Origin: a virus
Length of the DNA stretch: 27,702 nt
IMG/VR virus record: IMGVR_UViG_3300035162_003786
Span: 1-27,702 of that record
Direction: 5' to 3' (one strand)
Shown here piece by piece: positions 16,065 to 27,218 of this stretch; within the stretch, counting starts at the first letter, position 1, and each line of letters starts with the position of its first letter. The position numbers and the translations under genes are program-made. The notes beneath the pieces are model-generated. The model saw only the letters and a program-made list of their open reading frames with translations. It was not told where the DNA came from and made no database searches.

Positions 16065-16582
16065 GCGGCTACGAGGGACGGATCATGGAACGTGTCGCAC
16101 TACTGCCCACCCTGGCTTACACGCAGGCGACAGAAGATGGTATCGCCGCCATCGCCGCCGAAGCAGACGCCGCCTTGGCCGAGAAGGACAAGCGGATCAA
16201 CGACCTCAAGGCCGAGCGCGACGAGTACGTCGAGGCCGCGATCCGCACGGAGCTTGCGGAGGCAGAGGTCGTCGCCCTGCGGGCCAAGTTGGAGAAGCCT
16301 AAGTGCCGATGCACGGGGTGGCACATCGTGCCCCCCGAGGTCTGCGACTCGTTCACCCCCTGGGATGGTGACGAGGATTGTCGTGAGTGCTCCCACGAAC
16401 TCGGATGCCATTCCTCCGTGGACCAGGAGGTCGCCGCCCTGCGGGCCAAGGTCGCGGCGGGGGAGGATGCGCTGTCCGGTCTACGCTACATCGAGATGAT
16501 GCACGGACGGCTTGACGGTGTCGGATGGGACCGCGTGTTCGACGCTGCGCGGGCCGCTGGCCTGGGAGGGGACGATGAGTAG
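16061..16582 (+). CDS. Coiled-coil protein with Cys/His cluster, 173 aa
   Basis: ATGA overlap. The product begins MSGYEGRIMERVALLP, then a heptad-rich helix (about 27-75: ADAALAEKDKRINDLKAERD). A Cys/His-rich insert follows (CRCTGWHIVPPEVC, then CRECSHELGCH, about 79-115), then a second helix (QEVAALRAKVAAGED). It likely oligomerises and may bind zinc. It ends RAAGLGGDDE, and the last part lies in a 26-bp repeat shared with the end of the next gene. Confidence 0.72.
   Translation: MSGYEGRIMERVALLPTLAYTQATEDGIAAIAAEADAALAEKDKRINDLKAERDEYVEAAIRTELAEAEVVALRAKLEKPKCRCTGWHIVPPEVCDSFTPWDGDEDCRECSHELGCHSSVDQEVAALRAKVAAGEDALSGLRYIEMMHGRLDGVGWDRVFDAARAAGLGGDDE
16549..16574 (+). repeat. 26-bp direct repeat, copy 1 (gene junction)
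   Basis: Identical to 17057-17082, 508 bp away and in the same reading frame. It encodes RAAGLGGD at the C-terminus of the coiled-coil protein and contains GGGAGGGG, the Shine-Dalgarno sequence of the next gene. The two copies bracket the XF1762-family gene. Confidence 0.9.
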
Positions 16583-17090
16583 CCGACTCCACGTCCGACC
16601 GCTCACCCTCAAGGTTGCCAACGACTGGGTGGCCCAGCACCACCGCCACCACAAGCGCGTGGTCGGGCACCGCTTCTCGCTCGGGGCCTTCCTCTGCCAC
16701 GACATAGTGGCCTGCGTGATCGTCGGTCGCCCGGTCGCCCGCAATACGGACCAGGAGATGGTGGCCGAGGTCACGCGCCTCTGCTCCATCGGCACGGATA
16801 ACGCCTGCTCGATCCTCTACGCCGCCGCCGCCCGCGCCTGCAAGGCGATGGGGTTCTGGTGGATCCAGACTTTCACACTCCCCGAAGAGGGCGGTGCATC
16901 TCTGCGAGCTTCCGGGTGGACTGAGGACGGTGAAAGCCCCGGAGGGTCGTGGGATACACCTACCCGCGCTCGCGGAGCCCGCCAGTTCCTCTACGCCGAC
17001 ATGGGCGACGACCACCCGAAAGGCCCAAAGACTAGATGGGTCAAACACCTCAACGAGCGGGCCGCTGGCCTGGGAGGGGACGGAGCGTGA
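16575..17090 (+). CDS. XF1762-family phage protein (GNAT/Mom-like fold possible), repeat-bracketed
   Basis: 171 residues. The N-terminal signature LTLKVANDWVAQHHRHHKRV, then VGHRFSLGAF, matches the XF1762 family of phage proteins. A following VTRLCSIGTDNACSILYAA segment has the look of an acyl-CoA-binding loop and helix of GNAT-type enzymes. The family has been compared with Mom-like DNA modifiers, but its activity is not settled, so function stays open. ATG 16575 has GGGAGGGG upstream. The gene lies between two copies of a 26-bp repeat. Confidence 0.82.
   Translation: MSSRLHVRPLTLKVANDWVAQHHRHHKRVVGHRFSLGAFLCHDIVACVIVGRPVARNTDQEMVAEVTRLCSIGTDNACSILYAAAARACKAMGFWWIQTFTLPEEGGASLRASGWTEDGESPGGSWDTPTRARGARQFLYADMGDDHPKGPKTRWVKHLNERAAGLGGDGA
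17057..17082 (+). repeat. 26-bp direct repeat, copy 2 (gene junction)
   Basis: Identical to 16549-16574. It encodes RAAGLGGD at the C-terminus of the XF1762-family protein and carries the Shine-Dalgarno sequence of the following GTG-start gene. Confidence 0.9.
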
Positions 17091-17212: not shown

Positions 17213-17523
17213 CGAAGCTTGACGAGACGCGGGCGCTGCTGCCGGAAAGGTGCCGCTCGATCCCACCGGCCCCGTCAGGAGCGCCGGGGCCCTGGCCTCG
17301 GGTGAGATCGAGCGGCGTGTGGCTACGAGTCGAGCCAGACGAGGTGGTCGGCGATAGCTCGTGGACTGTCTTCGCCGAAAATCAGAAGGCGCTGGCAGGG
17401 CACGTTCGTCGAGCCAATCCGCTCTCGAGCGAATGGGCTGTCGGTCTGAGTCGACCCGTTGAGATACCAGCTCTTTGGCCCGAACATGCCCGATGCCGGG
17501 ACGTGGAAGTGCCCAAAGATTAG
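17209..17523 (+). CDS. Short gene converging into metallophosphoesterase gene (doubtful)
   Basis: ATG 17209 overlaps the previous stop and has GGAGG (17199-17203) upstream, so initiation is likely. The first 38 codons (MTKLDETRALLPERC and a Pro-rich stretch) lie outside other genes. From 17323 on, the frame is antisense to the C-terminus of the minus-strand metallophosphoesterase for 201 bp. It may be a truncated gene that lost its own stop, or a genuine overlapping gene. The C-terminal two thirds should not be used for family assignment. Confidence 0.4.
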   Translation: MTKLDETRALLPERCRSIPPAPSGAPGPWPRVRSSGVWLRVEPDEVVGDSSWTVFAENQKALAGHVRRANPLSSEWAVGLSRPVEIPALWPEHARCRDVEVPKD

Positions 17524-18399
17524 CGCGTCAAACTCTCCATCCGCATCGAGGTTGAGGGCCCACTTCGCGAGCATCCGCGTGATCGCATAAAGCGGCAATC
17601 CGGCAAACCCGCCCGACCCGGAGAACTGGTCGCCGTGCACCGCCATGACGCGAGCACCGCCACAGCGGAAGTTCACCAGGAAGTCCTCCACCTCGACGTC
17701 GAACGTCAGGCGCTTACCGTCGACCAGAGGCCCAAGCATCAGCTTTGCAGCCATGCTGGCAACAGTGTCCCAGTTCACCGACGAGGGGTTCGGGTCGGCC
17801 TTCCTCGGGCCGCTGCGCCCGTGGTTTCCACGGATTGCGTGGACGTGGACCTCGGGGAAGAGATCCATCATGCCGAGAACCATGTTCGCCGTGATCCGAG
17901 GGCACGTCTCCATCGACTGCGTGAGGACGTGCTCAGTCACCTCCCAAGGGTGGTTTGCCCGCATCCCCGAGCCGTCGACCTGATCACCGCCGAGCACGAT
18001 GTGGATCTCGTCGAGGGCCGCGCTCGAGCGGCGCGCCTCGACGATCTTGCGCACCTTCGGCACTAGGCGCTCCTCGATCATCTCGCGGAGCACCTCGGTG
18101 TCGAAGGTCGTCGTGCGGGCCCCGGTCTGCCAGTCAGAGAGGTGCAGGAGCGCGTACTCCTTGCGGGCCTTGCGTGACTTGGCGGGCTTCCTCGGAGCCT
18201 GCGGCGGCGGACTCCCCTCGAGCACCTCACGGATGTGGTCGACGATCAGCTGGGTCCGACCGTCCCGCCGGCGAGCCTCGCGGTGCAGCCGCCGAAGCTC
18301 GCGTTTGAGCGCCTGGACGTCGGCGGGCTCGACTTCCGGCATGGTCTCGTCAGCGAAGTCCGCTACCGACTTCTTCGCGGCCTTGCGCTTGCCGCTCAT
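17323..18399 (-). CDS. Calcineurin-like metallophosphoesterase
   Basis: 358 residues. A basic, helical N-terminus (about 1-80) precedes the phosphoesterase motifs in order: LHLSDWQTG (Asp 89), GGDQVDG (Asp 139), RGNHG (Asn 192, His 193), VHGDQF (His 255) and FGHFHVP (His 297, His 299). These residues bind two metal ions. The first motif has Gln where most relatives have His (DxH). The family includes nucleases such as Mre11/SbcD as well as nucleotide and protein phosphatases. The DNA context makes a nuclease or nucleotidase likely, not proven. It is the last gene of the leftward late unit and overlaps the previous gene by ATGA. Confidence 0.85.
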   Translation of the reverse strand: MSGKRKAAKKSVADFADETMPEVEPADVQALKRELRRLHREARRRDGRTQLIVDHIREVLEGSPPPQAPRKPAKSRKARKEYALLHLSDWQTGARTTTFDTEVLREMIEERLVPKVRKIVEARRSSAALDEIHIVLGGDQVDGSGMRANHPWEVTEHVLTQSMETCPRITANMVLGMMDLFPEVHVHAIRGNHGRSGPRKADPNPSSVNWDTVASMAAKLMLGPLVDGKRLTFDVEVEDFLVNFRCGGARVMAVHGDQFSGSGGFAGLPLYAITRMLAKWALNLDADGEFDALIFGHFHVPASGMFGPKSWYLNGSTQTDSPFARERIGSTNVPCQRLLIFGEDSPRAIADHLVWLDS

Positions 18400-18659
18400 G
18401 CGTTCCTCATGCCAAAGTGGGAGAGGCCCATGTGCTCGCGAGCGTGCCGGATGAAGATCTTCTTATCGATCCGCTCCCCGTCGAGGACGTACTTCGGCAC
18501 GTACTCGCTCGCGAAGGTCAACACGCCGAACTGGCGGCGCTTCACATTCGGGAGGCTCGCGTACTCGCCGATAGCCTTCTCGATCTTCTTCCTTTCGGCG
18601 TGGTCGCAGATCGCGCATGGAGTGCGCGCCCTCTCGTTCGCGAAATCGGAAATCTTCAT
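18396..18659 (-). CDS. Small Cys/HTH-like DNA-binding candidate, 87 aa
   Basis: ATG 18659 with AGGAGAAGG close upstream. The product starts MKISDFANERARTPCAICDH, then ERKKIEKAIGEYASL, and ends IFIRHAREHMGLSHFG. A CxxC near the N-terminus followed by a helix and RHxxxH recalls small phage proteins that guide terminases or recombinases to DNA, with the pattern C-x2-C, HTH, RHxxxH. That likeness is from memory. It overlaps the phosphoesterase start by 4 bp, so the two may act together. Confidence 0.68.
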   Translation of the reverse strand: MKISDFANERARTPCAICDHAERKKIEKAIGEYASLPNVKRRQFGVLTFASEYVPKYVLDGERIDKKIFIRHAREHMGLSHFGMRNA

Positions 18660-19135
18660 TCCTTCTCCTGGTTAGTGTCGGTATCCCGACGGTCGAATCC
18701 GATCAGGTCGCCGAGCTTGCGCCGACCCGCTTTCCATCGTCTCGTCATCTCGCCAGGGCCGAGCAGGATCCAGCCGAGCAGGAAGGCGATGACGGTGATG
18801 CCGACGAGCGTTGCCCCGAACTCAGCCCAGAGGCTCCCCCATGTCGGCGGGAGCTCGATCCGCTCGATGACGCGGGCCTCTGCGGCCTGCTGGGTCGTCT
18901 CCTGCCATCCGAGCCATGCCGCAGCCCCATCGACGGCGACTCCGATCCCTGCACCCACGACGGCCCCGAGAGGGCCGCCGACAAGGGCACCAAGCCCCGC
19001 TCCGGTCGCCGGGATCATGGCCTCGGCCACGACATCACCGACGCCTGCGACCTTCTCGAGCACCGCGCACCCCGGAAGGGCGACGAGCGCGACCAGGGCA
19101 GCGAGCCTACCGTCTCGCACGGCGCTCCTTGGCAT
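18656..19135 (-). CDS. Lipoprotein with C-terminal membrane helix, candidate unimolecular spanin
   Basis: 159 residues. The N-terminus is basic, then hydrophobic, and ends in the lipobox LPGC (Cys 23). A Gly-rich stretch (about 43-76) and a short amphipathic part follow. A strong transmembrane helix comes next (about 105-126, FGATLVGITVIAFLLGWILL), then a basic cytoplasmic tail. A lipobox at one end and a membrane helix at the other is the layout of u-spanins such as T1 gp11, which link outer and inner membranes at lysis. It sits next to a holin candidate. The Gly-rich region is not typical of spanins, so another membrane role is possible. Confidence 0.65.
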   Translation of the reverse strand: MPRSAVRDGRLAALVALVALPGCAVLEKVAGVGDVVAEAMIPATGAGLGALVGGPLGAVVGAGIGVAVDGAAAWLGWQETTQQAAEARVIERIELPPTWGSLWAEFGATLVGITVIAFLLGWILLGPGEMTRRWKAGRRKLGDLIGFDRRDTDTNQEKE

Positions 19136-19340
19136 ACCGCACCCCGGCGTGGCCGAAGACGGGAGCGGCGAAGATCCCGAGCGGGATACGAGCCCAGAGC
19201 GACAGGTCGGCCCCGAGGGCCGCGACCAGGAGCGCGAAGGACGCGAACAGGAGGATGCGCGTGGGCACAGGGGCGAGCGCGTCGGCCAGCTCCTCGATCC
19301 AGAACCGTGCGAGATCGATTGCGGCGGTGAGTTTCTTCAT
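19107..19340 (-). CDS. Two-helix membrane protein, holin candidate
   Basis: 77 residues, ATG 19340 with AGGAGA six bases upstream. Helices lie at about 27-44 (RILLFASFALLVAALGADL) and 48-65 (IPLGIFAAPVFGHAG), between a charged N-terminus and a basic C-terminal tail (KERRARR). Size and topology fit class II holins. Its 3' end overlaps the lipoprotein gene by 29 bp. No endolysin gene is seen nearby, so the call rests on topology and neighbours. Confidence 0.6.
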   Translation of the reverse strand: MKKLTAAIDLARFWIEELADALAPVPTRILLFASFALLVAALGADLSLWARIPLGIFAAPVFGHAGVRYAKERRARR

Positions 19341-19349
19341 GGCGGTCTC

Positions 19350-19766
19350 CTAGCTGAAGGACTTGATGAGCGAGATGCCCGCGACGGCGAGCGAGAAAAG
19401 GCCGCCAATGACGACGGCGACAAGCTGAGATTTCGCCGAGCGGCGCTCCTTGTCGCGCTCGCGCTGCAAGGTGACCGCGTCCCTCTCCGATTCCTTGCGC
19501 CACCGCAAGAGCGCGGCGATGTCCCGCTCGAGGATCACTAGGCGAGTCGTGAGAGCCTCCTTTCCGTTGCCGAGGTGGATCGCCGTATGGAGTTCGCGCA
19601 CCTGGCTGGCGACCTTCTCAACGTCGATGCGTAGGCCACGTAGGTCAGCACCTCGCTCGGCGAGCGTGGTGGAGTTAGCGGTAGCCTTCTTATCGAGCCC
19701 CTCGACCATCCGGGCCACGGTTGCGATGCGCTCCAAGATCGCTGTAGTTTCGTCTCCCAGGCTCAT
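19350..19766 (-). CDS. Coiled-coil protein with C-terminal membrane anchor
   Basis: 138 residues, ATGA overlap with the PAS gene. Residues about 5-110 are heptad-rich helices (ILERIATVARMVEGLDKKA, then LVILERDIAALLRWRKES), interrupted by a GNG turn. A transmembrane helix (about 113-134) ends the protein. The layout recalls phage lysis-associated XhlA-type proteins, in mirrored or similar topology. Next to the holin candidate, it may help lysis or membrane attachment. Confidence 0.68.
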   Translation of the reverse strand: MSLGDETTAILERIATVARMVEGLDKKATANSTTLAERGADLRGLRIDVEKVASQVRELHTAIHLGNGKEALTTRLVILERDIAALLRWRKESERDAVTLQRERDKERRSAKSQLVAVVIGGLFSLAVAGISLIKSFS

Positions 19767-20428
19767 CCCGCGTCCTCCAATCCGCCAAGGTTCGGCCCGC
19801 TGTCCCGACCCCGGGAAAGTGAGTCGATGTCGGCGAGGTGCTGCTCTCTACGGATCGCCAGCCTGATGCGGTTGCGCTCGACCTCGAGCTCGGCCTCCGC
19901 CAGCCGGTCGCGGAGATGGCGAAGCTCTGCCTCGTCGCGGGTCCGGTCGATGATCTGGCTCACGAAGAAATCCACACCGCCGTCGTCGAACCGGACAACG
20001 CCGACTGCGAGCATGATATGCACCACCGAGTTGTCGCGCCTGATATATCGCTTCTGATAGGTGTATCGCGCAATGCGGCCAGCCTTCAGCCGCTCGAACA
20101 GCTCGAGGTCCCCAGCGAGGTCGTCGGGGTGCGTCACGTCGGCGAACGTCATGCCGCCGGTCAGCTCCTCTGACGTGTAACCTAGCAGGTCCTCGAGCGC
20201 GCGGTTCACGCGCATCCAGCGCCCATCGGGAGACAAAAGCGCCATGCCATGCGCGGCGTCCTCGAAGGCCCTCTCGAATGCCTTGGCCTTCTGGTGGGCC
20301 GCAGATCCAGGCGACGACTGGACGGGGCACTCGGCGCAAGGAGACGCCGTTCGGCGGGCGGCGCGACCGAGGGCCACGCCAAGGAGCGCGGCGCATGACG
20401 CGGCCATTGCTGATAGCGCGAGCGACAT
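19763..20428 (-). CDS. Membrane-anchored PAS-domain protein
   Basis: 221 residues from ATG 20428, overlapping the previous stop (ATGA). A hydrophobic N-terminus (about 2-20) acts as anchor or signal, followed by a CAEC pair (31-34). Residues about 50-160 are a clear PAS/PAC domain: FEDAAHGMALLSPDGRWMRV, then LLGYTSEELTG, VTHPDDL, the PAC strand KRYIRRDNSVVHIMLAV and FFVSQIIDRT. A coiled coil (about 163-200) ends the chain. No kinase, cyclase or DNA-binding output domain follows. PAS domains sense small molecules, light or redox state, or mediate protein contacts. The ligand is unknown. Confidence 0.88.
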   Translation of the reverse strand: MSLALSAMAASCAALLGVALGRAARRTASPCAECPVQSSPGSAAHQKAKAFERAFEDAAHGMALLSPDGRWMRVNRALEDLLGYTSEELTGGMTFADVTHPDDLAGDLELFERLKAGRIARYTYQKRYIRRDNSVVHIMLAVGVVRFDDGGVDFFVSQIIDRTRDEAELRHLRDRLAEAELEVERNRIRLAIRREQHLADIDSLSRGRDSGPNLGGLEDAG

Positions 20429-20826
20429 CAGACGGTAAGCTTGAAGCCGAACCATTCGGTGCCGTCGGAGTAGACCGCGACGGCGACGTGCTGGGTCGTC
20501 TGGGTGTAGTCGCTGGTCGAGCCGTTGATGGTCTCGCTGCCGTCAGCCGTGAAACCCACAGCGTTTCCGCCGGCGTCGGTCTTACGCATATAGACGACTC
20601 GACCGACGTCAGCTTCAGCGGCTGGGGGGAGAGTCCCGAGGACCGCACCGGACGTCGCGTCACAATGGTAGGTGTCGAGCGGGGATCCAGAACTGTCGTC
20701 GTCCCAGACATCGAAGCTCGCGGTCTTCTCGAAGAGGTTGAGGTTCCGCGCCTTGCGCAGGTTCTCGTTATAGGTCGTCGGGAAGTCGCTCGGCTGGTCG
20801 CCGCTACCTAGTGGGGAGTAGCTCAT
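20428..20826 (-). CDS. Phage tail/fibre-associated protein, 132 aa
   Basis: ATG 20826 overlaps the upstream stop (ATGA). The C-terminal half reads VGFTADGSETINGSTSDYTQ, then VAVYSDGTEWFGFKL, a beta pattern often seen in phage fibre tips and baseplate-type proteins. The N-terminal part (ARNLNLFEKTASFDVWD) would form a domain edge. A small head-binding or fibre role is likely from sequence style and position among tail genes. No enzyme motif is present. Confidence 0.65.
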   Translation of the reverse strand: MSYSPLGSGDQPSDFPTTYNENLRKARNLNLFEKTASFDVWDDDSSGSPLDTYHCDATSGAVLGTLPPAAEADVGRVVYMRKTDAGGNAVGFTADGSETINGSTSDYTQTTQHVAVAVYSDGTEWFGFKLTV

Positions 20827-21179
20827 TGCTGGGTCGGATCGAGTTGGTCAAGGGTGTCATCGTATCCCGAGAGCAGTTCGGCCCACGGGATCGCGTCGAG
20901 CTCATCCGGCGTCGACGCGGCGAGCGCATTGCTCTCGATGTAGTTGCTGATCTGCCGCACAGCGGCGCGAGCCTGCGCGACGTCGGTGGGGAGAGGCACA
21001 CCCGTCTCGAAGGCCTTGATCGTCTGCCAGTCGGTCGCAGCCAGGATCTCGCCAGCCCACGCCTTGACGTGAGCGACGAGCAGGGGTACGTACTCCTCGA
21101 GCGTGAAATGGTAGATCGTCTCGACGAGCTGGCCGTCTTCGTAGGATTCGGTGCGTAGTGGTGGAAGGGGCTGCTTCAT
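20823..21179 (-). CDS. Putative tail fibre assembly-type protein, 118 aa
   Basis: ATG 21179 is two bases after the stop of the fibre candidate; a longer frame upstream overlaps that gene and is rejected. The product has an N-terminal beta part (ESYEDGQLVETIYHFTLEEY), then AATDWQTIKAFETGVPLPTD, a segment like the AATDW motif of phage fibre-assembly and XkdW-like proteins. Helices follow. A chaperone for fibre folding or attachment is plausible. Confidence 0.6.
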   Translation of the reverse strand: MKQPLPPLRTESYEDGQLVETIYHFTLEEYVPLLVAHVKAWAGEILAATDWQTIKAFETGVPLPTDVAQARAAVRQISNYIESNALAASTPDELDAIPWAELLSGYDDTLDQLDPTQQ

Positions 21180-21181
21180 GG

Positions 21182-21862
21182 CTAGACCATCTGCACGCTG
21201 ACGATTGGGAAGGCTCCGGTCGAGACCCCAACGGAAGTCGCGGTAGCGGGCAGCGCAGCGTATGCGAAGATCTGGTATTGGATCGTGGGCCGCTTGGTGG
21301 CACTCGCTGCCCACGCGACCAGCGGTAGGTAGCCCGTGGTCGAGAGGACTTCGAAGGTCGGAGACGCCGACGAGCAGAGGAAGGCCGTCCAATGCCAGCC
21401 AGACCTGACGGGGATGATCTGCGACACACCCATCTGCTTGAAGGCAGCGGTACTGGTCGAGAGGCTACCGCTGTCGAGGATCTTCGTTCCCGGCTCGCCA
21501 TCCTCGTCGGAATAGAGGCCGACGCGGACGTTGCCCGCTGCTGCGCCACGGACGTGGCACCCGATATTTTTGACGTTGACGTTGTAGCCCGACGGGATGC
21601 AGATCGGGGCATAGTAGATGATGTTCGCCGCGACCGCCGCCGTCGCGTCCGCGATCAGTCCGGAGGGGTTCCTGATCCACCGCGACGAGGCCACGGGTGG
21701 GCAGGCGTTTCCGAACCCGCTCGGGTGCCCGCCGACGTAGAGGCCGCCGCCGAGCGGCCCGCTGTCGGTGGTCATGTGGGGCTCGCCATCGGCCACGCTC
21801 GCCAGCCTACGGGCCGAGTCGAGCCCACGCCGGATCAGGATCTCGCTATTGTCGTTCGCCAC
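21182..21862 (-). CDS. Fibre or tail-tip adsorption-protein candidate, 226 aa
   Basis: Starts at GTG 21862, sharing one base with the hub gene stop (TAGTG). The product has an N-terminal helix with EILIRRGLDSARRLASVADG, an attachment-type sequence seen at the base of some phage fibres, then Ser/Thr/Gly-rich beta-sandwich repeats (GNVRVGLYSDEDGEPGTKIL, WTAFLCSSASPTFEVLS) to the end. The position right after the gpJ-like hub and the composition suggest receptor binding, not demonstrated. Confidence 0.65.
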   Translation of the reverse strand: MANDNSEILIRRGLDSARRLASVADGEPHMTTDSGPLGGGLYVGGHPSGFGNACPPVASSRWIRNPSGLIADATAAVAANIIYYAPICIPSGYNVNVKNIGCHVRGAAAGNVRVGLYSDEDGEPGTKILDSGSLSTSTAAFKQMGVSQIIPVRSGWHWTAFLCSSASPTFEVLSTTGYLPLVAWAASATKRPTIQYQIFAYAALPATATSVGVSTGAFPIVSVQMV

Positions 21863-24800: not shown

Positions 24801-26814
24801 CCGTCCACAGCGGCGCGTCGGTCTGGGGTGCCGCCTGGAGCGAGGAGCCCACGACGTCGACGACCTGCCCCGTCGTGGTCGAGGTCGGGAACGCCAGGCT
24901 CTCGATCTTGGCGCTAGCGATTTCCTCAGACAGGTAGGTGCCGAAGGCCAGGCCGGGCATCCCCGAGGCGAGCGTGGTCGTGCGCGCCCCCGTGTAGTCG
25001 AACTGCGTCGTCAGGCCCTGGAACCAGGCATCGTCTTCGACGCGCTCGGTCAAGATGAACTCGCACAGGTCCAGGTCTCCCGAGAAGTTCTCCATCGTGC
25101 CGCTCGGGACGCCCGAGTGCCCCAGCACGAAGTCACCCTCCTCCTGGAGGACAACGCCAGTCGGCCCCGCCCCGAGCGCCTGCGTGGACGCTGCGAGCGG
25201 AGTCCCGTCGAGGTAGAATGTGACCACACCCGTCGCGCCGCTGTAGCTCAAACCGACGTGCTTCCAGCCGGTGAGGCTCGCACCAATGTTGGCCGAGTAC
25301 CAGACGCGCCCGGTGGCACCTTCCCAGACGTAGAGGCAGACCCGGTGCTCGTCGGGGTTCGTGCCAACCAGGTCGACGATTCTGTCGATACAGAGCTGCA
25401 CACCGGCGTGCGACGTCGAGGAGGACGCGCCTCGAGGCCAGAACGGCCATGTCGTCAGGCTGCCCGCGCTGGTAGCCATTGACCCTTTCCGCGAGCTAAA
25501 GACGACGTATGACTGCCCCTTGAGCGTGGGTGGGTAGCCCGACGTGCTGGGCCGCAGCCAGGCCGCAGCGGAGAACTTGAGCGCGGAGGAAAGCTGGAAG
25601 TTCGCCGGCAGCATGTCCGGATCGACTGGCCCAGTCACCTTGGCGTGGGCCGACTGCCCCGAGCAGGCCAAGTAGCCGAACTGCGAAGTCCCCGCGTAGG
25701 AGTTCGGCGAGAAGAAGGCGGCGTCGAACTGGATAGTCTGCCCGGACGTCTCGTCGCCGGTCACCGTCCACTCAGGGAGCAGGACCGTGTCTCCCGTTCG
25801 GGTTCCGCCAGAGTCCACAGGCCAATACTGGAGGCGGAACGAAGCGCTCGAGGTCGTCGTGCCGCCACCGCCTGCATCCTTGTAGATGCCGCTCGGGAAC
25901 GAGATCGTGAGCAGCATTCGGTCGGCCTCGTCCGTCATTGTGTGCGACAGGGACTCGCCAGAGGCCGCGTCGATGTCGGAGCCTGACCCGTACACACCGG
26001 ACGGGAACCCGGCCTCCGTGATGTCGGTCGAGCTCGAATACTCGAGGATGTCCTGCTCGATGGTCACGTCGACCGAGGAGTCGGGGAATCCGCCCAGCGC
26101 GGTGATCGCGTCCTGCTCGATCTCGCCGGTTCGCCAGTAGACGAACACGTCGGAGTAGTTTGACGCGGGCTGGCCGTTGATCTTCAGGCCGATAGCGTCT
26201 CGGTCGTCGATGTTGATCGGGTTGCCGCTCTTGAGGGCGAACATCTCCTCGGTCTTGGAGACTTTGCCGGTCAAATCGCCGAGCCCCTCGATAGGGCCAT
26301 GCCCCAGGCAGAGCAAGAGCTTCATCGTCTCGCGGCCACCGAGGACCCACGAGCCGAAGCTGGACTCAATGGCCTGCCCGACCACGGGGGGCGCAAACCG
26401 GCGCAGGCCGAAGACCAGGGGGATGCTCCCACCGGGGAAGTAACTATTGGAGAAGCCGCGATAGCTCTCGCTCGTGCTGTCGTCCGCGACCGGCTGCTCG
26501 GCCTTCGGGGCCAGGTGCTTCTGGATCAGGTTCGAGGCGGCGGTCGTCCCGATGACGAAGAGCAGCTGACCCCACCACGGCAACGCTGCGACCGCCGCGA
26601 GGCCGGGCTTCACCCACACCGCTACCAACGATCCAGGAGCCACCTCGCCGTCGACGCGCTCCTCGCCGTCGACCGTGACCATGATCGAGCCGTCTCCAGC
26701 CTCACAGCCCGACGGGAGCACGTCGCGCAGGGCCTTCGGCTCGTCCGCCGCGACCACGTAGCTCTCACGCGACCCGACGTCGAAGATATTGCGCTGAAAA
26801 GTAACGGTGATCAT
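21862..26814 (-). CDS. gpJ/TipJ-like tail tip hub protein, 1650 aa
   Basis: Large central tail-tip protein that would plug the tube and contact the host. The N-terminus (MITVTFQRN) has a ubiquitin-like or docking part, then a hydrophobic stretch (about 71-103, ALPWWGQLLFVIGTTAASN). The region with IPLVFGLRRFAPPVVGQAI and LCLGHGPIEG is typical of TipJ. Residues about 405-600 look like an inserted laminin-G/ConA-like module (WKHVGLSYSGATGVVTFYLD). Later parts (about 700-1330) hold the hub and Ig/FNIII-like domains, including a Pro/Gly-rich linker near 1240. The length is in the range of lambda gpJ (about 1130) plus insertions. ATGA overlap with NlpC/P60. Confidence 0.88.
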   Translation of the reverse strand: MITVTFQRNIFDVGSRESYVVAADEPKALRDVLPSGCEAGDGSIMVTVDGEERVDGEVAPGSLVAVWVKPGLAAVAALPWWGQLLFVIGTTAASNLIQKHLAPKAEQPVADDSTSESYRGFSNSYFPGGSIPLVFGLRRFAPPVVGQAIESSFGSWVLGGRETMKLLLCLGHGPIEGLGDLTGKVSKTEEMFALKSGNPINIDDRDAIGLKINGQPASNYSDVFVYWRTGEIEQDAITALGGFPDSSVDVTIEQDILEYSSSTDITEAGFPSGVYGSGSDIDAASGESLSHTMTDEADRMLLTISFPSGIYKDAGGGGTTTSSASFRLQYWPVDSGGTRTGDTVLLPEWTVTGDETSGQTIQFDAAFFSPNSYAGTSQFGYLACSGQSAHAKVTGPVDPDMLPANFQLSSALKFSAAAWLRPSTSGYPPTLKGQSYVVFSSRKGSMATSAGSLTTWPFWPRGASSSTSHAGVQLCIDRIVDLVGTNPDEHRVCLYVWEGATGRVWYSANIGASLTGWKHVGLSYSGATGVVTFYLDGTPLAASTQALGAGPTGVVLQEEGDFVLGHSGVPSGTMENFSGDLDLCEFILTERVEDDAWFQGLTTQFDYTGARTTTLASGMPGLAFGTYLSEEIASAKIESLAFPTSTTTGQVVDVVGSSLQAAPQTDAPLWTGDQGIPLRGRYHVELFRSDAVDDDPAVEMNKATWDQVTLITDEDFSHPGVAQLAVSIDADDQISNSRPDVSVLVRGVKVPRWDGASVQFPTFVTEWTRNPAWIALYLLTEEEVGLGAIWDRRTAINLTAWKAWADYCDEGVEDAAGTPAFFDGDPVSASADHPNGELHFKIGLLDASGVSTGEVVPSTWTIGHTLRIKTASDSSWEVASADDSVRLAITSMKWESDDTAANGYQHWVQIECDWTSSYSLPGVSNVTGTAVGFEARHECDLILDEKVADGWDTVLQVMRAARAAPIVLGDKLSVWVDRARPRDFLITQAQIVEGSYSKRWESNEERHNGLEYEFVDRNLDYEVQPWIEHHPSVSGEVDPREIRVAPPELLRGITRISEVRRHATFRLNQLHLLRVAHSFQLGPDGLGLAPGDRVGISHDVALSGESGRVFADVTTATEIELDRPVVVAFGSTYEIEVRSSGQVAVDGTELRQTVALDATMIPGSGTSTLAAGSTITLAGSGFTDFTPEQGDVYSFGETASSSEDAVVVRVTLDPASMLRTVEAVEYNASVYTDNEFGDLPADPGADLPSPPGNSGVGGGIKRPGSGSGSLGGALPTAKERTKSTVGGKPVSVVLVSWPIQEKATGGTNVYVGSLTNGARPTPRLVGRAAPGEASVEVSAKEFAQGERLRFFIQHISASGVGRSAHACPSVDMTFGGRMLTPAAPTITTPKSRNAQAAYSITFPPGRTPEGVEVRAGGWILGQKVAHALRDGDLVGEWVFGADNSVGAGAVTHYVRSLLPSGQVSSAATFENFDATPLGMAELDATAHEDAWASGVLDGLQIDSSTTPPHLKFTGSGLEGTFTTPEVDMTVAKRYFVEVSVEAEQVHPDTWADWTEPWDSRTMAGRLWEGPTGGSDALLSSLVIEWTPSETGTPATNFASVHPGVEHFRSAKFRVRVTRPTSAFDCRIRRFGVRVLSVADYEPGDIDGGSY

Positions 26815-27218
26815 TTGACAAGCGCCTGCTTTCGTGGTCGGTAGACGCCCACGACCTCGCCCTCATCGTAGCATTTTGCCGACCCTACCGACTGACCAAT
26901 AGTCGTCTCGAGCACACGCCTGGGCCACTTCTCGGCGACGACCGCCAGGTGGGCCGAGCGGCCCCGCATCCCCGGGTCGAGCACGATCACGTCGCCGGGC
27001 ATCGTCGCGTCCGCCCAGCGGTCCCCGACGCGAACCCAAGCGTCTCCCCATGCCTCGACCGCCTCGGCGGGGCTCCGCGACTCGCTCGCCGGCAGCTCTG
27101 GCGTAGGCTCGCCGAGGCGGCGAAGCACCTCGAGGGCAAGCCCGGCGCAGTCGAGGCCGGCCAGCGTGCGCCCGCCGAGCTCGAACGGGATGCCGATCAG
27201 GTCGTCGAAGTCACTCAC
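26811..27218 (-). CDS. NlpC/P60 tail assembly peptidase (gpK-like)
   Basis: 135 residues, GTG start in a GTGA overlap. The signature IPFELGGRTLAGLDCAGLAL holds the catalytic Cys 24, and RSAHLAVVAEKW holds His 90, the NlpC/P60 cysteine peptidase pair. The order gpL-like, this gene, gpJ-like matches lambda-type tail tips, where gpK is a tail-tip assembly or cell-wall-cutting factor. It is shorter than lambda gpK and lacks its N-terminal JAMM-type domain. Confidence 0.85.
   Translation of the reverse strand: MSDFDDLIGIPFELGGRTLAGLDCAGLALEVLRRLGEPTPELPASESRSPAEAVEAWGDAWVRVGDRWADATMPGDVIVLDPGMRGRSAHLAVVAEKWPRRVLETTIGQSVGSAKCYDEGEVVGVYRPRKQALVK

Follow-up and report, generated by a model that had tools for sequence, protein, structure and literature searches.

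Most descriptions of holins present them as clocks with a fixed setting, T4 lysis inhibition being the classic exception in which a phage senses its surroundings to set lysis time. In T4, RI is reported to inhibit the holin T on superinfection (PMC11413866, PMC8385771). A later case of lysis inhibition was reported for a Vibrio cholerae phage (PMC7182436). T4 lysis inhibition (T, RI, RIII) may resemble the locus described here in purpose, namely sensing to set lysis time, provided that the present locus senses as we propose. T4 RI is a periplasmic antiholin and not a PAS protein; the likeness is thus one of role, with different parts.

The window, i.e. the whole 27,702-base IMG/VR virus record analyzed here (GC 67.5%, probably a fragment), encodes a protein that agrees with PAS signalling domains (PF00989/PF08447/PF13426) in fold and sequence and passes their cut-offs, but is a single, phage-encoded PAS lacking kinase, cyclase or DNA-binding output. 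Short LOV/PAS proteins (PpSB1/2-LOV) are among its closest solved folds and likewise consist of a single PAS with flanking helices. Unlike these, the window PAS is without the photoactive cysteine, has a membrane anchor and belongs to a phage gene. The next gene encodes a helical, C-terminally anchored protein (CC-TM) with the architecture of XhlA-type lysis proteins (xhlA/xhlB/xlyA of B. subtilis PBSX), namely a helical part and one C-terminal TM segment; however, it gave no XhlA or hemolysin profile match at E ≤ 1. We know of no PAS gene beside xhlA. Bacterial CheY-like single-domain-receiver two-component systems resemble viral relatives of the locus in their intact kinase and receiver residues, but the viral version is found in late gene groups and is fixed to a downstream coiled-coil two-TM protein.

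A sequence-only reading of this DNA had suggested a membrane-tethered PAS sensor inside a lysis-like gene group. We give about even chances to the proposal that the PAS protein is a sensor module which, through its CC-TM neighbour, influences holin-like membrane proteins and thereby tunes lysis time. Coordinates of the features are given in the table.

Features of the window and of the related kinase loci (L, other viral contigs).
Feature	Coordinates	Strand	Basis
NlpC/P60-like tail-tip peptidase, lambda K position	26811..27218	-	phrog_329 E=1.1e-6; PF00877 E=7e-4 (below cut-off)
Lambda J-like central tail protein, 1650 aa	21862..26814	-	phrog_31 E=2.3e-60
Tail-fibre-like/structural protein, 132 aa, adjoins PAS gene upstream	20428..20826	-	phrog_31104 (function unknown) E=4.5e-4 at C-terminus
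Membrane-anchored PAS protein (anchor predicted), 221 aa	19763..20428	-	PF00989 E=1.9e-11, AlphaFold, PDB fold matches, TM scan
CC-TM protein, 138 aa	19350..19766	-	translation, AlphaFold all-helical, TM scan
Small membrane protein, 77 aa, candidate holin	19107..19340	-	translation, TM scan (topology only)
Lipobox+TM protein, 154 aa, candidate u-spanin	18656..19120	-	topology only
87-aa protein with CxxC pair, downstream end of gene group	18396..18659	-	no Pfam/PHROGs family
Calcineurin-like exonuclease, end of minus-strand operon	17323..18399	-	phrog_284 E=8.8e-44
Kinase/receiver/CC-2TM trio	L018 7247-9455; L025 2448-5336; L039-L118		

The left part of the window carries plus-strand replication genes (helicase, Prim-Pol/DUF3987, Cas4-type exonuclease and Sak4-like annealing protein), and the right part a minus-strand operon beginning with lambda-like tail genes (NlpC/P60, J). 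J is followed by genes 21182-21862, 20823-21173 and 20428-20826, the PAS gene, three membrane-protein genes, the small CxxC gene and the exonuclease gene. The gene overlaps agree with the coupling described in the sequence-only reading: the PAS gene overlaps its upstream neighbour by 1 nt (TGATG) and the CC-TM gene by 4 nt (ATGA). No Shine-Dalgarno sequence was found ahead of the PAS gene, and with a start inside the TGATG overlap its translation would probably need coupling; the CC-TM gene has its own GGAGG 7 nt upstream of the start. Near the PAS gene group, no promoters or terminators stood clearly above chance.

Pfam placed the PAS domain at residues ~51-163 (44.4 bits against a cut-off of 22.6), with PF00989, PAS_3 (2.2e-10) and PAS_9 (9.6e-10) all over cut-off. 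AlphaFold modelled a helix (3-28), a PAS core (approximately 43-161) and a long helix of 46 residues (163-208), and a PDB search with the model matched hundreds of solved PAS/LOV chains. Residues 1-19 are hydrophobic (mean hydropathy 1.9) and are followed by RAARR in the TM scan, from which the PAS domain is predicted to be cytoplasmic. The full PAS domain, the N-terminal hydrophobic anchor and the lack of an output domain, for which Pfam gave PAS families alone over the 221 aa, had all been read from the sequence and are upheld by these results. A two-component sensor kinase was rejected as an identity of this protein, HisKA/HATPase output being absent. The coiled coil also ascribed to it is retained as a long C-terminal helix only; its heptad pattern did not exceed that of shuffled sequences (p=0.45, crude test).

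None of the cofactor types considered was supported. The photoactive cysteine of LOV photoreceptors (GxNCRFLQ) is absent, cysteines occurring only at positions 12, 31 and 34 and nowhere in the core 43-161, and the predicted F-alpha helix (101-115, PDDLAGDLELFERLK) has no histidine, the residue that is proximal in FixL/DOS-type heme PAS domains. LOV and FixL-type heme cofactors are therefore disfavoured. NifL, a FAD-type PAS protein, was among the fold matches, although a fold match does not tell FAD binding. The redox, ligand or energy input that had been suggested is hypothetical, and the domain may hold flavin, another ligand or no ligand. A CxxC pair (C31xxC34, SPCAECP) separates the TM helix from the PAS core, just inside the membrane, and is a possible redox or metal site.

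The CC-TM protein consists of long helices in the AlphaFold model, followed by one C-terminal TM segment (110-128, TM scan). Its heptad pattern reached p=0.05 against shuffled sequences in the same kind of crude test, and no convincing Pfam or PHROGs family was assigned. In the 77-aa protein, two hydrophobic segments and a basic C-terminus were noted, and its ATG is preceded by the Shine-Dalgarno sequence AGGAG. The lipobox+TM protein contains a lipobox-like LPGC, a glycine-rich middle and a C-terminal TM segment; as a candidate u-spanin it shows LPGC and TM by pattern only, with the proline and the glycine-rich middle being atypical. Its start was listed as ATG at 19135; GTG at 19120, with AAGGAG, is likelier. 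Both proteins thus have the topology of the holin and u-spanin candidates for which they had been taken, but neither gave a significant Pfam or PHROGs match. No endolysin, the gene by which a lysis cassette is recognised, was found by Pfam and PHROGs in the group or elsewhere in the 27.7-kb fragment; we therefore infer, rather than observe, a lysis group in the window itself, and on the window's own evidence the assignment is of moderate strength. The NlpC/P60-like gene was not taken as an endolysin owing to its lambda-K tail position.

For comparison with other viral contigs, IMG/VR was scanned by PAS sequence alone, ignoring context, using degenerate DNA patterns (N..A...L.GY..EEL and N..F..[ILV].GY..EEL) and an alignment scan. 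Stand-alone PAS genes were recovered in L006, L012, L014, L022, L037 and L038. Several other motif-scan matches were set aside, some for not being PAS and others as large kinases of bacterial type that probably come from host or prophage-edge DNA. In L012, L022, L037 and L038 the PAS gene adjoins a CC-TM gene, and an endolysin or hydrolase candidate is present in the region; the endolysin match is significant in L022, L038 and L037 (DUF5675-type) and weak in L012. L022 has the gene order of the window, i.e. a tail-fibre-like gene (phrog_24754 E=1.3e-3), PAS, CC-TM, a Peptidase_M15 endolysin (PF08291 E=3.3e-16; phrog_894 E=1.2e-26) and a lipobox+TM protein, with overlaps of 1 nt (tail/PAS) and 8 nt (PAS/CC-TM) compared to 1 and 4 nt in the window. 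The order in L038 is amidase endolysin (phrog_822 E=3.4e-39), holin-like gene, CC-TM, PAS and possible spanin, and in L037 CC-TM, PAS, TM protein and a DUF5675-type gene (phrog_1501 E=6.7e-24). Since their CC-TM proteins are 95% identical, L037 and L038 count as one lineage. In L012, a TM protein, PAS and CC-TM (weak match to phrog_1193 'hemolysin', E=0.014) are followed by a glycosyltransferase-like gene and, 1 kb on, by a peptidoglycan-hydrolase candidate that matches a tail-lysozyme profile. A Polaribacter match to the L012 PAS (E=1) was dropped, since the genes around it are unannotated and none is labelled as a lysis gene.

In L014 (9.5 kb taken), TM-CC, PAS and receiver (REC) genes are situated among DNA-metabolism genes without lysis neighbours, and in L006 the PAS gene has neither a CC-TM partner nor a lysis gene beside it. 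On the contig of L014 (L123 4048-5260), the TM-CC, PAS and receiver genes form an overlapping triplet, and most of the surrounding genes are on the other strand.

Counting the window by hand, a CC-TM neighbour was present at five of seven stand-alone PAS genes versus ~3% of background genes. A binomial value for this comparison serves only as a guide, since the background set is small and shares some loci with the PAS set, and since L037 and L038 are not independent. Lysis or late gene groups likewise hold five of the seven, window included, with L006 and L014 as exceptions; genes of this type are thus not placed mostly away from lysis genes, as had been named in advance as evidence against a lysis context. 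The lysis-like character of the gene group is supported by the relatives near endolysin or hydrolase candidates (L012, L022, L037, L038), but not by an endolysin in the window. Across lineages, the CC-TM proteins have their architecture in common and no detectable sequence likeness. The PAS proteins of L037, L038 and L022 have neither a TM segment nor a long C-terminal helix, and the anchored form is therefore not general. Exact 8-mer scans of viral contigs gave no close relatives of the window PAS, J or exonuclease, and tblastn of the window PAS and CC-TM against 50,697 phage records gave no match up to E=10. The CC-TM proteins of the window and of L038/L037 had no match in bacterial genomes.

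The same PAS scans yielded a TM-TM-PAS-histidine kinase gene followed by a single-domain receiver gene and a coiled-coil two-TM (CC-2TM) gene (L018, L025, L027, L028 and others; the L027 kinase is without TMs). A receiver-alignment scan with confirmation recovered at least 507 IMG/VR stretches encoding the receiver, of which 80 were kept. Among 87 loci examined (54 distinct receivers), the kinase was present in 86 and the CC-2TM gene directly downstream in 83, most missing genes being accounted for by contig ends. Receiver residues D9, D10, D63, S94 and K116 were invariant over the 87 loci, and the H, N and G boxes of the kinase were kept in nearly all sequences covering them. Such a receiver, lacking an output domain and encoded next to a membrane protein, agrees with regulation through protein contact. 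Structural genes lie close to the loci, and of the 37 loci with enough flank only 16 have a gene nearby that is related to any of the five endolysin queries. Around the L018 trio there are small TM proteins, a lipobox+TM protein and a DUF5675 gene. The isolated-phage collection gave no relatives of this receiver. The window itself encodes no kinase and no receiver, and the trio would be tied to it by shared design, not by homology of the membrane proteins.

In the mechanism proposed for the window, the TM helix of the PAS protein would anchor its PAS domain to the inner membrane on the cytoplasmic side, and the domain would change state with some signal during infection. This state might be passed, presumably by binding, to the neighbouring CC-TM protein, which as a putative member of the lysis module would promote or restrain a holin-like step, and lysis time would thereby track the state of the cell. 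The proposal draws on the PAS domain with its predicted anchor, on the overlap with the CC-TM gene, on the recurrence of this gene pair near endolysin genes in other viral lineages, and on the kinase trio and the Cellulophaga proteins described below as related designs. Weighing against it are the heptad signal of the PAS C-terminal helix, no higher than in shuffled sequences, the window without endolysin and with its holin and spanin named by topology, the unanchored PAS proteins of L022, L037 and L038, the CC-TM proteins without common sequence, the exceptions L014 and L006, and the proportion of kinase loci found near the tested endolysin types. A broader and more tentative proposal, to which we assign somewhat less than even chances, is that sensor-controlled lysis is widespread in phages, with PAS proteins and PAS-kinase/receiver pairs feeding coiled-coil membrane proteins of lysis modules and the window representing a minimal anchored version. 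If this is true, PAS modules and phosphorelays would make lysis timing a sensed decision in many uncultured phages. A search of the openly licensed literature returned no papers that deal with PAS or kinase genes as parts of phage lysis modules; such an absence does not prove novelty.

Accessory genes are commonly located behind tail-fibre genes. The PAS gene directly follows tail-fibre-like genes and has no output domain, and L006 and L014 carry PAS genes away from lysis genes; all this would agree with a host-directed accessory gene, whose membrane-bound PAS product acts on host signalling, for instance by associating with PAS kinases or cyclic-di-GMP enzymes of the host. We consider such a role unlikely in view of the recurrent overlap with a CC-TM gene and the endolysin genes nearby in other lineages, and of the phage kinase-receiver pairs having their own conserved adjacent membrane partner. 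Alternatively, the PAS fold could be a structural lysis factor that senses nothing and only provides a platform on which a CC-TM/holin complex dimerises or assembles. Several relatives are indeed bare PAS domains, and the window protein has no cofactor signature (LOV cysteine or F-alpha His). PAS domains are, however, mostly signal-input modules, and the kinase version retains an intact phosphorelay, so that a purely structural function is also given a low probability. Superinfection exclusion or another envelope function, with co-transcription by chance and no lysis role, would suit the predicted membrane anchoring and the late, tail-proximal site, but is very improbable because a cytoplasmic PAS is unusual among exclusion proteins and relatives show synteny with endolysin genes. 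A virion or adsorption component tied to the upstream tail genes, as might be suggested by the tail-fibre-like gene that overlaps the PAS gene both in the window and in L022, can practically be dismissed given the TM anchor with a cytoplasmic domain and the Cellulophaga gp90 and phiSM gp11 proteins being without the MS/MS virion label that other genes of the same records bear.

These latter proteins bear on the sensor reading as distant relatives at the level of fold. When viral proteins were searched by structure, the window PAS model retrieved proteins of Cellulophaga phages phi19:1 (240 aa) and phi18:3 (172 aa) and 'PAS domain' proteins of uncultured phages. By length and position, the phi18:3 protein is gp90 and, less surely, the phi19:1 protein gp108. 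No match to the PAS profile was obtained for gp90 (gp108 was outside the scanned stretch), and 'PAS-like' therefore refers here to fold. In phi18:3, gp90 is followed by a 5-TM protein and an endolysin; the phiSM gp11 gene overlaps a peptidase gene; and Ingeline gp36 is followed by a TM protein, a gene with DUF5675-like product and a lipobox+TM protein. The 'virion by MS/MS' label is borne by other proteins of the phi18:3, phi19:1 and phiSM records and is absent from the PAS-like ones, which weakly disfavours a virion role for this distant, fold-level relative only. In these Cellulophaga phages, the TM-anchored proteins that are PAS-like by fold adjoin three different endolysin types (L120 39102-39620; L129 3911-4546; L128 3935-4537). 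Since the phages exist as isolates and encode the PAS-like protein among their lysis genes, they are a possible laboratory model.

At the end of the minus-strand operon, the small CxxC gene (18396-18659) and the exonuclease gene share 4 nt. A short gene likewise precedes the exonuclease gene in Streptomyces phage Dagobah, and in phage DSL-LC01 the gene at this site is labelled terminase small subunit. Elsewhere in the window, two products point to possible DNA modification by the window phage: a Mom-like protein just under the Pfam cut-off (16512-17090) and an N6/N4 DNA methylase, part of which is weakly ParB-like (847-2613).
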